From Candidatus Kapaibacterium sp. (lineage in GTDB: Bacteria > Bacteroidota > Ignavibacteria > Kapaibacteriales > UBA2268), in assembly GCA_026390695.1 (NCBI GenBank), contig JAPLFL010000037.1, forward strand, positions 1 through 64,000: a stretch of DNA of 64,000 nucleotides. Reading direction: 5' to 3'. Both the position numbers and the translations under genes were made by a program. A model generated the notes under the pieces. It saw nothing but the letters and a program-made list of their open reading frames with translations. It ran no database searches and was not told where the DNA came from. Below are positions 51,318 through 60,212 of this stretch, piece by piece. Within the stretch, counting starts at the first letter, position 1. Every line of letters starts with the position of its first letter.

Positions 51318-53522
51318 TTAAAGTGCTTTTGGAACAGGTAGTGATAATTGAACAATATTTCCTTCATCTCCGCCGAATGATTCGATTACTATAGAGCCGT
51401 TTAATAATCTGACAATTGAAGCTGCTATTGCGAAATTGAGAAGAATGTCTTTTTTATCGTGTCTAATTGATTCGATTAAATTGCTTGTATTTTCTTTATA
51501 AATTTCTATCATTGTTTCGACAATTGGATTGGCAGGGCCAAGAATCTGTACTTCAGTGGCGCCTTCTGATCTATTTTCCTGAACATTGATTGAAACTTCG
51601 GAGCTCGCCAATCCTTCAGTAAGCGAAAGTAGCAGCAATTTGATTAACTGGCGCATCTTTTCAATATCTCCTATTGCAATTGCAGTCAAAGATTCTTCAC
51701 TTATAATGACATTGATTTGCTTGTCATTTGGTAATTCTATTTTAATGTCTTCGTTTGCCTGATCAATAGCACTACTGACTCTGAATGTAGCAAATTGACT
51801 GAAGGAAGCACTGCCTCCATCGGCAGCAACATCAATAATGTCCGACACAAATGTAAAAAGCTCTTCAGTTGATTCAGATGCAAGATTAAGATATGTGTCA
51901 TGTTCTTCTTCGTTATCATACAACTTTTCATTTAAGAGTTGCATGTAACCGATAATACCAGTGAGGGAGTTACGTAATTGATGGGATAATTTCGCCATAA
52001 AGGTAGATTTAAACTCATTTGTTTCCCGACTGAGCTGTTCTGCAAGTCTATTTTGATTTGCGCGCATTGCAGCCTCTTCTTCGGCAAATTTTTCAAGGGT
52101 TACATCGCGACCGATTGCATAAATAAGATTATCGGATTTTGAAACAGTAAAACTCCAATTTACCCATCTGAGTTTCTTATTTTTATCAATCATTCTGAAA
52201 TCGACCCGTTCAATATATTCATTTTCCGATTTATTAATCAATGAATAAAATGTTGGAATGTCATCAGATTGCTCGAATAGAAAATCAATTTTGTTAGATA
52301 TTAATTCATCTGGACCATATCCGAATAGCTTCAATGATGCTGGGTTCATTGTTTTCCAAATACCGTTGAAATCAATTACTGCAATAACGTCATTTGATGA
52401 ATCCACTATTCTGCGTTGTGAACGAGTCATCCTTTCAGCTTCGTCAATAGCAGCAGCTTTTCTGGTTGTGACAGAAAGTAGGAAGACAAAAAACAGAATA
52501 CTAAGGACAAGGGATGTAACTAAAGTTATAACTGGTAAAGATTTTTGGAAACTTCCACCAAAATTGGGGATAGTTCCAAAGTGAACTTTCATGATTCGGT
52601 TGGCAATTTTAAAATTAGCAGTATAAACAAGTTCAGGTTTCAAATCTTTATCGTAAAGTTTGGTATTTTCGGATTCGAAGACGGAATATTCTTTGTTATT
52701 TTCGTTTATATCAACTATCTTGAAAGTAATACTTGTATCACTCGGCACACCAGTACCAATGGCACTTTTAAAAAATCCATTAGTATTTATTTCAAGTCCG
52801 ACGATTCCGCGGAAAAATTTTCGACGATTTTCCAAATTATCAGGAATTGAATCCTTTTGATAAATAGGAGAAATTATTAGGATGCCATTTGTATCGGGTT
52901 TTCTGAGCAATAAACTTGTTGTTGCAGTTAATAAATTAGAATCTCTTGCCGTTTCAATTTCTTTTTTAATAAAAGGCTCTGAAAAAAGGTCAAATCCGCT
53001 TCTTTGCTTATTTTTCTGATAAGATTCAATGAATGTAACTGGCATGTAAAAATCTTTATTTTCTATTGGATATACTGAGAAATCATAGAGACCTTGAGAT
53101 TTTACATTATAAATATGAAGAGCGAGATCCTTGTTGGGGACTTGCTGAGCATATAAAACACTAACTATCGAAGTAGAAGTTTTTGTGGGAATAGAAGCAT
53201 AAAGCTGGAAATAATCGCGGACAACATCTATCAAATTATCATAAAGACCACGAATATTTGATAATATTTGTACATCTGTTTCATATTTCGAGTTTAATCG
53301 TTCAACAACTGATGTATAAGCTTTTTCAAACGATGCAGCTTTATCGTCTTTAATTTTTTGTCCGACAAAATACCATAAAAATATGCTTAGAGCAAGTGTA
53401 ATAACAAGTACAATATAAGCTGGATAAGTTTGTTTCAAACCATATATCGATGATTTTTTCTTGTTTGCTTGCTTTAAAATTGACTCGTAAGAGGAAGAAT
53501 CCTGATTATCTTTCTTTGCCAT
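51318..53522 (-). CDS. Membrane PAS histidine kinase homologue with degenerate ATPase domain
   Basis: 734 residues: TM1 about 35-53, a large periplasmic CHASE-like sensor (about 90-310), TM2 about 330-350, PAS about 370-480, HisKA with MAKLSHQLRNSLTG (H514). The following ATPase-like region lacks the N box (LLLSLTEGLASS in its place), the DxGxG motif (LGPANPIVE) and the GxGxG lid (NFAIAASIVRLLNG). It may therefore be a pseudokinase or receive phosphate from another kinase. It is followed 45 bp upstream on the map by a receiver gene (53568-53954), which comes first in transcription. Confidence 0.82.
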   Translation of the reverse strand: MAKKDNQDSSSYESILKQANKKKSSIYGLKQTYPAYIVLVITLALSIFLWYFVGQKIKDDKAASFEKAYTSVVERLNSKYETDVQILSNIRGLYDNLIDVVRDYFQLYASIPTKTSTSIVSVLYAQQVPNKDLALHIYNVKSQGLYDFSVYPIENKDFYMPVTFIESYQKNKQRSGFDLFSEPFIKKEIETARDSNLLTATTSLLLRKPDTNGILIISPIYQKDSIPDNLENRRKFFRGIVGLEINTNGFFKSAIGTGVPSDTSITFKIVDINENNKEYSVFESENTKLYDKDLKPELVYTANFKIANRIMKVHFGTIPNFGGSFQKSLPVITLVTSLVLSILFFVFLLSVTTRKAAAIDEAERMTRSQRRIVDSSNDVIAVIDFNGIWKTMNPASLKLFGYGPDELISNKIDFLFEQSDDIPTFYSLINKSENEYIERVDFRMIDKNKKLRWVNWSFTVSKSDNLIYAIGRDVTLEKFAEEEAAMRANQNRLAEQLSRETNEFKSTFMAKLSHQLRNSLTGIIGYMQLLNEKLYDNEEEHDTYLNLASESTEELFTFVSDIIDVAADGGSASFSQFATFRVSSAIDQANEDIKIELPNDKQINVIISEESLTAIAIGDIEKMRQLIKLLLLSLTEGLASSEVSINVQENRSEGATEVQILGPANPIVETMIEIYKENTSNLIESIRHDKKDILLNFAIAASIVRLLNGSIVIESFGGDEGNIVQLSLPVPKAL

Positions 53523-53567
53523 GATTATTACAAAACCTAATTTGTATTTAAAATTTGTTAATTAAAA

Positions 53568-53954
53568 TTATCCTCTTTTTCTTTCAATTACTCCGATGAT
53601 ATCGGAGACGAAAGTAGAGGTGTTTATAGGTTTAGCGATATAATAATCGAAACCCATTTCAATAAATTTCTCTTTATCGTTAGTCTGAGCAAACCCTGTA
53701 ACTGCGATTATCGGAATTTCAACTCCACCTGACATCATTCGCAATATGCCTAAAATATCTGTTCCACTTACATCAGGAAGAAATATATCACAAATTACAG
53801 CTAAAACCGGATTCTCTCTTAAATAATTCACAGCGCTGTTTCCATCGGCAAAATCCTGAGTAATAAATCCTGATTTTTTTAAAATGGTACAAAATAGCCT
53901 TCGAATAGGCATATTGTCTTCAATTACACAGATAGGTAAAGTTTTATCAAACAT
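53568..53954 (-). CDS. Single-domain response regulator (CheY-like)
   Basis: 128 residues, receiver only: acidic pocket in CVIEDNMPIRRLF (E11/D12), phospho-acceptor in AVICDIFLPDVSGTDIL (D56), T/S near 84 (IPIIAVTGFAQ) and K near 107 (YYIAKPIN). No output domain, so it acts through protein contacts or phosphorelay. It sits between the OmpA-family gene and the degenerate kinase, all on the minus strand and closely spaced. Confidence 0.9.
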   Translation of the reverse strand: MFDKTLPICVIEDNMPIRRLFCTILKKSGFITQDFADGNSAVNYLRENPVLAVICDIFLPDVSGTDILGILRMMSGGVEIPIIAVTGFAQTNDKEKFIEMGFDYYIAKPINTSTFVSDIIGVIERKRG

Positions 53955-57336: not shown

Positions 57337-57367
57337 ATCATCCGATGGCTCTGAGTCATCGGATGAT
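57337..57367. terminator. Bidirectional hairpin terminator after nuoB
   Basis: ATCATCCGATG (57337-57347) pairs perfectly with CATCGGATGAT (57357-57367), loop 9. An A run precedes it. It separates the convergent nuoB and receiver-kinase genes. Core identical to the stem at 51264. Confidence 0.75.
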
Positions 57368-57440: not shown

Positions 57441-58589
57441 TTATTTCAACTTTTTTATCGGTAAATCGATAAAGAACGTCGCACCACTTCCATGGATACT
57501 TTCAACCCATATCCTTCCACCATGCGCTTCCACTAATGCTTTTGCTATAGAAAGCCCTAATCCTGATGATGATTCGCCACCAGTGGGCCGAGCGGATAAT
57601 TTTTGAAATTTACCAAACACCTTCGTCATATCATCGGAACTTAGCCCAGGGCCTTCGTCTTGAACTTCGAGCCGTGCATAATGGAGGCTCCCGTTTTGTA
57701 TAATTCCGGACCTTATATAAATACTTTTATCAAAATCTGAATATTTCACAGCATTGCTGATAATATTATCAATTATTTCGGATAATCTAAGATTATCTGC
57801 AAATACAACCGGGTTAGAATCTGTAAAATCAATATGAAAAGTTTGATTTTTTTTGATAGCCATTGGCTGTGAATTTTCAATTCCCTGCCTTATCATCAAA
57901 TTAAAATTTGTAGCAGTTTTGTCAAGAATTAATTTACCACTTTCAATGCGGGAAACGAGCAATAGTTCCTCGACAATATGAAGTATATTCTTACATGATT
58001 TCTGAATATTTGTCAACATCAAGGCTGAGTCGGAATCTTGAGAAAATTCCTGTGCTAAAACTGTTGATAAAACCATGATTGAAGTCAGTGGATTTTTAAT
58101 ATCATGAGCAGATATCTGCAGTATCTGATTCTTTAGTTCAATAGCACTCTGAAGTGCTTTATTGCTGTGAGTCAGGTTTCTAAGCTTTACGAAAGTACGA
58201 ATCCGCGCCAATAGTTCAGTTATATCAAATGGTTTTGAAAGGAAATCATTACCATCAACCTCAAATCCTTTGGATAATTCCTCCATATCGTCTTTTGCAG
58301 TAAGGAACATTACAGGTAATTCGAAAAGAGAATATTTTTCACGAATTTTACGACAAACCTCATAGCCACTCATTCCAGGCATCATCACATCAAGGATTAC
58401 AACGTCGAAATCCTGATTAAATGCCAGCTCAAGTGCAGCAGTACCATTTTCAGCAATTTCAACGCTATAATTATTATGAATCAGATGTTTTTTAATAATT
58501 CTTAAAGTGGCTTGCTGGTCATCAACAACAAGAACCTTACCTTCAATGGTTGTAACTGTACTTGTTAATTTTATTGTGGCTTCTTCCAT
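57441..58589 (-). CDS. Receiver - histidine kinase (N-terminal REC, soluble)
   Basis: 382 residues: receiver 18-135 (VLVVDDQQ, D67 in VVILDVMMPGMSG, K119 in LSKPF), HisKA with LQISAHDIKNPLTS (H162) and an intact ATPase (IISNAVKYS, DEGPGLSSDD, SSGLGLSIAKAL). No TM segment. Receiver-first kinases act downstream of other kinases or as relay integrators. It is the third gene after the chemoreceptor-like (59436-60212) and ODP-like (58642-59439) genes on the same strand, 52 bp from the latter, so the three probably form one oxygen- or redox-sensing pathway (inference). Confidence 0.9.
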   Translation of the reverse strand: MEEATIKLTSTVTTIEGKVLVVDDQQATLRIIKKHLIHNNYSVEIAENGTAALELAFNQDFDVVILDVMMPGMSGYEVCRKIREKYSLFELPVMFLTAKDDMEELSKGFEVDGNDFLSKPFDITELLARIRTFVKLRNLTHSNKALQSAIELKNQILQISAHDIKNPLTSIMVLSTVLAQEFSQDSDSALMLTNIQKSCKNILHIVEELLLVSRIESGKLILDKTATNFNLMIRQGIENSQPMAIKKNQTFHIDFTDSNPVVFADNLRLSEIIDNIISNAVKYSDFDKSIYIRSGIIQNGSLHYARLEVQDEGPGLSSDDMTKVFGKFQKLSARPTGGESSSGLGLSIAKALVEAHGGRIWVESIHGSGATFFIDLPIKKLK

Positions 58590-58641
58590 TAATCATCAAT
58601 AAAAATTTAAAATAAATAATTAGGTGCTTGAAAGATAGAAA

Positions 58642-59439
58642 TTATTTTTTCCATTTCATCCAAACACAATTATTAACGTTTGTATCTTCCTGTCCCCTGT
58701 TCCAATGCCCTACTTCGAGGGCTTCAAGCCAATTTAGAAATCTTCCGACATTTTCTCCTTCAAAAATAGCACCGTGCTGAGGGCAGATCATTGATGGATT
58801 CAAAGCTCTGGCTCTGGCAACCCAAGCTCGTAAATCTTTTGTAGAGCTCATCCAGCGTTTATGAAATCCCTCCATAAACTGAATATGAGAATCAAAATTT
58901 GTAACGAATAAATCAGTATAATCTGAAGGTAAAAGGGCAGCTCCGATATCACCTGAAAAAAGAATTTTAGCTTTAGGGTCAAACACAGAATAATTTCCTG
59001 AAGAATGGCAATAGTGTGCAGGTACGAAGTACTGGAATGAATTGGAGGTTCCGATTTGTACCTCCATACCTTCATCGGGAATACCGATTAATTTAATTGC
59101 ATTTCCCATTCCGAAATGAGCAAGAAATCCCTGCCAGCCCCACCAGCAATAGGTATCGACATCTTTGATTATATCGACCCAAAGTGCAAGGGAAGATGCT
59201 ATATCAGGGTCTTGATGACTTGAGAAAATTATTTTTATATTATTTACTGAGATGTATTTCGTTACTTCTCCTATAACCGATGAAAATATCTCAAAACCGC
59301 CTGGATCAAGGATCATCCCCTGATTTCCGGAAACGATGAGATATTGATTAGTATCTACTATTTCTTCTTTTTTTTCTGTATCACGACCAATAACAATCCA
59401 CTCATGGCCATCTTGAGAGTATATAACGTGGCTTCTCAT
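58642..59439 (-). CDS. ODP-like di-iron metallo-beta-lactamase-fold protein
   Basis: 265 residues with the flavodiiron-type beta-lactamase fold but no flavodoxin or rubredoxin domain. Metal ligands: SSHQDPDI (H75, D77, D79), PAHYCHSSG (H142/H145), LFSGDIGAA (D164) and CPQHGAIF (H222). H-x-D-x-D and the VPAHYCHSSGNYSVFDP phrase match the ODP family, including the Treponema oxygen-binding chemotaxis sensor. It overlaps the chemoreceptor-like gene by 4 bp (ATGA), as the Treponema ODP works next to a chemotaxis kinase. Likely an oxygen or NO sensor rather than a reductase. Confidence 0.85.
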   Translation of the reverse strand: MRSHVIYSQDGHEWIVIGRDTEKKEEIVDTNQYLIVSGNQGMILDPGGFEIFSSVIGEVTKYISVNNIKIIFSSHQDPDIASSLALWVDIIKDVDTYCWWGWQGFLAHFGMGNAIKLIGIPDEGMEVQIGTSNSFQYFVPAHYCHSSGNYSVFDPKAKILFSGDIGAALLPSDYTDLFVTNFDSHIQFMEGFHKRWMSSTKDLRAWVARARALNPSMICPQHGAIFEGENVGRFLNWLEALEVGHWNRGQEDTNVNNCVWMKWKK

Positions 59440-60212
59440 TTAATTAGATTCGAATGTTTAACATTATTTAAAATATTTTCAGAGTGAGCAAGCATATCAA
59501 TTATTGAATCAAGGCTATTATTCAGCTTATCCACTATTTTTTTAATATTGGAAACTAAAGAATTAAAACTACTTTTTCCTCCAACCAAATAAGAAGATTC
59601 GATTGATATATTTGATCCCATATAATTTGCTATAAAGCCATTGCGGCGGATTCTATCGATTTTGTTTTTTAATTTTACTATATCAAGAGAAATCTCATTT
59701 AGGAATAAGTATATTTCTTCTATATTGATAATGCTCGACTCAACAATAGAATCAATGCTTGTTTTTAAATTATCATCAATAAACGGAACATTCGCAGCTC
59801 TTCTCTTAATTTCCATTAAACCGCCAATTGAATTTAATTCATAAGCATTCCCATTTAGAAAATTTCCGGAGTTAATAGAATCAATTTTATGTATGATTTT
59901 ATTCTTAACAAGTAGTTTGCGAATATTTATTGAAATTCCAATAATTGATTTTGACATTTTTATTGATTGTCGCTCAAGATCCTCAAGCTCTGGAGCTATA
60001 GTCAGCGGCAGATCAGATAAAAATGCTGATAGAGCTATTAAAGACTGTCCCTGTTTTGTTCCTATCTTTGCTGCCTGAACTATACCATTAATGGCAAGTA
60101 ATTTCAAATCCATACTGATCGATTTGAGAGTACTTGAAATATTTAAAATATTAACACCTGACAACAATATCTTGTTTATATCCAAATATATTTCTTGAAA
60201 TTTATTACTCAT
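59436..60212 (-). CDS. Soluble chemoreceptor-tip-like helical protein
   Basis: 258 residues, all-helical, no TM segment. Near residues 35-70, LKLLAINGIVQAAKIGTKQG followed by IALSAFLSDLP corresponds to the MCP hairpin tip (N-L-L-A-L-N-A-A-I-E-A-A-R-A-G-x-x-G-x-G-F-x-V-V-A-x-E-V). It is diverged: the E-A-A-R-A core reads QAAKIG. The coiled-coil arms are short and asymmetric. It may contact CheA/CheW or the neighbouring kinase. First gene of the ODP / receiver-kinase operon; TATATTTG on the minus strand at 60256-60249 is a possible -7 box. Confidence 0.7.
   Translation of the reverse strand: MSNKFQEIYLDINKILLSGVNILNISSTLKSISMDLKLLAINGIVQAAKIGTKQGQSLIALSAFLSDLPLTIAPELEDLERQSIKMSKSIIGISINIRKLLVKNKIIHKIDSINSGNFLNGNAYELNSIGGLMEIKRRAANVPFIDDNLKTSIDSIVESSIINIEEIYLFLNEISLDIVKLKNKIDRIRRNGFIANYMGSNISIESSYLVGGKSSFNSLVSNIKKIVDKLNNSLDSIIDMLAHSENILNNVKHSNLIK

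Follow-up and report, generated by a model that had tools for sequence, protein, structure and literature searches.

In the window analysed here, a stretch of 64,000 nucleotides from a contig of Candidatus Kapaibacterium sp. (JAPLFL010000037.1), a gene for an ODP-type di-iron protein lies directly behind a gene for a soluble helical protein, here called H, which carries two degenerate chemoreceptor-like tips in a single chain. H and ODP are a conserved unit on their own, and the receiver-kinase gene that follows them here stands outside it. We consider it probable that the pair senses oxygen (or redox state or iron) inside the cell and feeds a genuine CheA/CheW chemosensory complex. The locus is laid out as follows:

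59436..60212, minus strand: H gene, 258 aa, soluble all-helical protein with two putative degenerate chemoreceptor tips
58642..59439, minus strand: ODP gene, 265 aa, ODP-type di-iron protein, putative O2/Fe sensor
57441..58589, minus strand: kinase gene, 382 aa, REC-HisKA-HATPase, adjoining H-ODP in this genome only
57337..57367, minus strand: intrinsic-terminator-like hairpin 3′ of the kinase gene, 11-bp stem and T run, z=-4.2

According to the ORF positions in the window, the H and ODP genes share a 4-bp ATGA overlap and the kinase gene follows ODP at a spacing of 52 bp, reproducing the positions of the three tightly spaced minus-strand genes in the initial annotation, and its N-terminal receiver histidine kinase is matched by Pfam Response_reg, HisKA and HATPase_c. 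Since a terminator-like hairpin follows the kinase gene and none is found between the ODP and kinase genes among the hairpins listed, a single transcript spanning all three genes is plausible in this genome. The further proposal that the trio forms one operon can be kept in that local sense, but the conserved unit comprises the first two genes only. Elsewhere in the window, positions 51318-53954 (minus strand) encode a CHASE-PAS-HisKA kinase and a single-domain response regulator.

The assignment of ODP is straightforward. The protein matches Pfam PF19583 over its full length with 238.6 bits against a cut-off of 27.2 (E=6.7e-71), and in the PDB it matches 6qnm (E=1.9e-67) and 6qrq (E=1.2e-64). 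Six residues (H75, D77, D79, H142, D164, and H222) are invariant in the 16 sequences and align with identical residues of both structures; we take them to be the metal ligands, their roles being assigned from flavodiiron proteins, and in this respect the ODP-type di-iron fold with intact ligands is as originally described. Beyond the part aligned with 6qnm and 6qrq, both alignments stopping near the ends of those chains, the protein continues into a conserved tail:

58645..58707, minus strand: ODP C-terminal tail, residues 245-265, ending in ...WMKWKK, conserved and probably flexible

Predicted confidence declines along this tail from a pLDDT of about 66 to 38. The ODP of genome G015 lacks the ...WMKWKK tail, and the H of the same genome is among the most diverged; our guess is that the tail docks to H. 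Two divergent ODP paralogues were also seen in genome G006 (L060 6678-7711 and L061 7620-8683; PF19583 E=3e-44 and 1e-42). Close behind each lies a small gene whose product, 77-78 aa long, has a conserved SCGI motif and matches nothing in Pfam.

H and the long form of ODP are inherited together. They occur in the same 12 of the 36 genomes of the family and never apart, where the H set consists of 11 members from sequence search and the divergent G015 copy, and a match in G021 (E=5e-4) was not counted, lying inside a 1033-aa frame that also matches MCPsignal. The two genes are adjacent in 11 of these 12 genomes, and in the twelfth (G009) both are intact on different contigs. A class-wide sample of 391 genomes gave H (E<1e-50) and ODP (E<1e-20) in the same 10 genomes, and a scan of the collection found H at additional loci, in MAG records with Kapabacteria, Ignavibacteria, Bacteroidetes or Chloroherpeton in the title; four of these were new genomes, and in every one of the four ODP comes directly after H. 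Over 16 genomes the pairwise distances within the two protein families are correlated (r=0.93), a value inflated by near-identical genomes, and by eye the other neighbours of the pair vary (RsmD, a lipoprotein, a methyltransferase). The coupling of an ODP-type di-iron protein to a soluble MCP-tip-like protein that was originally proposed is thus upheld by the conservation of the pair in one third of the family. The trio as a whole is not kept in relatives: the kinase adjoins the pair at one of 16 loci, that of the window, and at none of the 15 others. Its nearest relatives (44-46% identity) reside in genomes that have neither H nor this ODP type, one of which, G011, is without any CheW, and the receiver-kinase is most likely an incidental or lineage-specific addition to H-ODP.

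The relation of H to chemoreceptors emerges from family profiles and hardly at all from the single sequence. Against Pfam MCPsignal (PF00015), H scores 12.1 bits, far short of the cut-off of 34.6 bits (E=0.18), only one of 12 family members is listed in a PF00015 scan, single-sequence Pfam and NCBIfam scans are uninformative, and phmmer with the single sequence against the PDB returns chance matches only. Likewise, when the two halves of H are compared by hhalign with a narrow MCP profile built from 32 sequences, the probabilities are only 3% and 0.3%, and N half and C half give no meaningful match with each other. The H family profile, on the other hand, finds as its top PDB match the soluble MCP 3g67 (E=2e-5), and also 3g6b (4e-4) and 1qu7 (0.016), the PDB MCPs aligning with the profile in register at the tip. 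Run over class and phylum genomes, the same profile lists six distant matches outside the family, five of which are MCP-domain or MCP-tip proteins (L135, L136, L137, L139, and L185, with L139 and L185 classed by tip motif); the sixth (L138), by eye a 2-oxoacid-oxidoreductase-like gene, is a chance match. An MCP-tip PSSM has its best and second-best scores at the two tips in 14 of the 16 H sequences. The anchor residues are N42 and N201, with per-window p=9e-5 and p=7e-4 for the H encoded here. In a reverse scan with a profile of the second tip, the 16 top-ranked non-H proteins are MCP-type, each matched at its own tip; since L135-L139 had been retrieved with the H profile, their high rank in the PSSM and tip-2 scans is biased, whereas that of MCPs retrieved with PF00015 is unbiased. 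From these profile matches in register, the hairpin tips of H are judged to be homologous to MCP tips. Thus the MCP-tip-like motif pointed out in the initial annotation is backed by profile methods, whereas a search with 59436-60212 against MCPsignal stays at noise level, an outcome which that annotation had itself named as counting against the idea. H lacks the long adaptation (methylation) helices, and it has neither a transmembrane segment nor a sensing module, its maximum 19-residue hydropathy being 1.45.

The two tips are not equivalent:

60012..60131, minus strand: tip 1, H residues 28-67, turn G51-T52, LKLLAINGIVQAAKIGTKQGQSL
59535..59654, minus strand: tip 2, H residues 187-226, turn 207-212, NYMGSNISIESSYLVGGKSSFNSLV

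The second, around residue 201, is better supported than the first, around residue 42, which alone had been noticed earlier. In the residue numbering of Tsr, tip 1 retains A379, N381, A386, and G390 and has K for R388, E385 being mostly Q and F396 replaced by S, while tip 2 retains I384, E385, and F396 and has mostly Y for R388. Many residues that are invariant in MCP tips are altered in H, and together the two tips keep complementary residue sets in nearly all 16 H sequences. Two-tip chains were also observed at L140 (5841-7691) and L141 (9280-11055), where soluble receptors about 600 aa long each bear a pair of degenerate MCP tips and have CheA, CheY, and, by eye, a possible STAS-like protein and a CheR-like methyltransferase as neighbours; they are possibly part of a wider family of two-tip receptors.

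AlphaFold2 on H, given 16 sequences, returned a model (pLDDT 84, pTM 0.77) with hairpins at residues 3-50/53-113 and 147-206/213-253, whose arms measure about 41-61 residues and whose turns coincide with both tips. Fold comparison ranks designed four-helix bundles made of a single chain highest (Z 18.5, rmsd 2.2 over 191 residues), and these run up-down-up-down; such a topology would place turns 1 and 3, and hence both tips, at one end. The list from VIA-align consists mostly of unrelated four-helix bundles and was used for topology alone. H is accordingly predicted to hold two receptor hairpins in a single chain with their tips at the same end, a bundle that may resemble an MCP dimer in one polypeptide. 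Foldseek with the same model gave no match with E below 0.001, only generic helical bundles, and MCP signalling domains were absent among its best matches; since each MCP chain contributes just one hairpin, this absence is weak counter-evidence.

The genomes that encode the pair also encode ordinary chemosensory machinery. The host genome holds three full MCPs, two CheAs, and several CheWs. CheW and MCPs are present in all 12 H genomes of the family, the 10 family genomes that lack CheW also lack H (Fisher p=0.015, phylogeny ignored), and the presence of H varies with that of CheW inside genera g4 and g14. A particular CheA subtype, that of the C73 cluster (CheA-CheW-CheR-CheB), is found in 10 of the 12 H genomes and in 2 of the 24 others (Fisher p=1.5e-5, or p=0.001 among CheW-positive genomes only, phylogeny ignored in both), the copy of G034 being counted from split fragments; the two H genomes from which it is absent are G012, which is 85% complete, and G027. 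The H gene itself lies outside any che cluster. In genome G000, a second cluster at L142 (6614-14306) encodes CheA, CheW, CheR, CheB, a hybrid kinase (REC-PAS-HisKA-REC-Hpt), and a REC protein, and its CheA co-occurs with H-ODP. A stretch at about 7588-7819 of L143, where no gene was picked, matches MCPsignal weakly (E=7e-5) and contains one stop codon; it is possibly a receptor remnant or a chance match.

Given the constant co-inheritance of ODP with the two-tip H, the signal would probably pass to an ordinary chemotaxis kinase rather than to the adjacent two-component kinase. In such a scheme ODP would be the input, its di-iron site changing state with O2 as can be expected from its family, and H the output, each of its two hairpins taking the place of one subunit in the tip of an MCP dimer. 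ODP would bind H, perhaps through its flexible tail, H would enter receptor trimers and CheA/CheW baseplates, and the unequal residues of the two tips may mean that each has a task of its own. With neither methylation helices nor a transmembrane segment in H, adaptation would have to be supplied by neighbouring receptors. A more specific version, which we put forward only tentatively and would sooner doubt than assert, takes H as a minimal natural single-chain tip in which contacts with the trimer axis and with CheA/CheW are split between the unequal hairpins, ODP being the only input and adaptation machinery of its own being absent.

Among the alternatives, one keeps the pair and does away with the kinase contact: H may have lost its contact with CheA/CheW and serve as a scaffold for ODP, or as a modulator or decoy that inserts in MCP trimers without a kinase. 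The loss of MCP-invariant residues, with E385 to Q and F396 to S in tip 1 and R388 to Y in tip 2, speaks for it, but in nearly all 16 sequences the two tips between them keep complementary residues, and the occurrence of H goes with that of CheW and of one CheA subtype; we regard this reading as rather unlikely. Far less credible is that H is an unrelated four-helix bundle whose likeness to tips arose by chance or convergence: the noise-level single-sequence Pfam match and the weak hhalign results are what it has in its favour, whereas the profile matches MCPs among PDB entries as well as across whole genomes, with the hairpin turns in register.

Two further readings give the downstream kinase a part. 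The initial annotation had suggested that this HisKA receiver-kinase may take the CheA role, which would make the locus a hybrid of chemotaxis and two-component signalling, an idea to which the 52-bp gap and a terminator listed after the kinase and not before it lend some appeal. An ordinary HisKA kinase as CheA stand-in was nevertheless rejected as the main reading, because the kinase is no neighbour of the pair in the 15 other loci, its closest relatives are encoded in genomes that lack the pair, the host has two true CheAs, and the pair is found only with CheW and MCPs; we give the hybrid scarcely any credence. Very unlikely, too, is a local branch of this lineage only, in which CheA or the array phosphorylates the receiver of the kinase and joins oxygen chemosensing to gene regulation; the predicted co-transcription of the kinase with H-ODP and the presence of a hybrid HisKA kinase inside the C73 che cluster would fit it, but the arrangement is not conserved in relatives. 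We favour H-ODP as a sensing pair that delivers its signal to CheA/CheW. If this is true, H would be a natural counterpart of engineered single-chain Tsr receptors, and, as its two tips keep different residues, it would offer a direct way to ask which dimer subunit touches the trimer axis and which touches CheA/CheW. Oxygen sensing by ODP, so far associated with the Treponema and Thermotoga proteins, would also reach a Kapabacteria/Ignavibacteria-like lineage, in which the receptor partner is unusual.

Single-chain receptors and a Treponema ODP-MCP pair are already known, and H-ODP is therefore best seen as a minimal, compact, asymmetric, and diverged version of these arrangements. In Treponema denticola, ODP (TDE2498) is coupled to the soluble MCP homolog TDE2496, which modulates CheA (PMC7666581). 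As there, the ODP of the window is 6qnm-like, and its genetic partner is a soluble protein of MCP type that lacks transmembrane and sensing modules; unlike TDE2496, by its description, H combines a pair of diverged tips in a single chain and falls under the Pfam MCP cut-off, and unlike the Treponema ODP, the ODPs here bear an extra conserved C-terminal tail. An engineered single-chain Tsr~Tsr functions in chemotaxis, and natural soluble single-chain MCP signalling domains have been described in Rhodospirillum centenum (PMC4692393). With both of these H shares two signalling hairpins head to tail in one polypeptide, from which a dimer-like bundle is expected; whereas Tsr~Tsr joins two Tsr copies, H has 258 aa, no adaptation helices, unequal tips, and an ODP partner, the R. 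centenum receptors being compared by description only. DosM of Vibrio cholerae also has two signalling domains in one receptor chain, but it forms an extended rod with one domain at each end (PMC7534058), whereas H is predicted to have both tips at the same end. Among the proteins retrieved here, L135 and L137 (E=4e-13 and 3e-15 against MCPsignal) are soluble receptors whose two degenerate tips resemble those of H; unlike H, they are about 600 aa long, carry the tips in reversed order, and lie beside CheA and CheY, with no ODP seen nearby.
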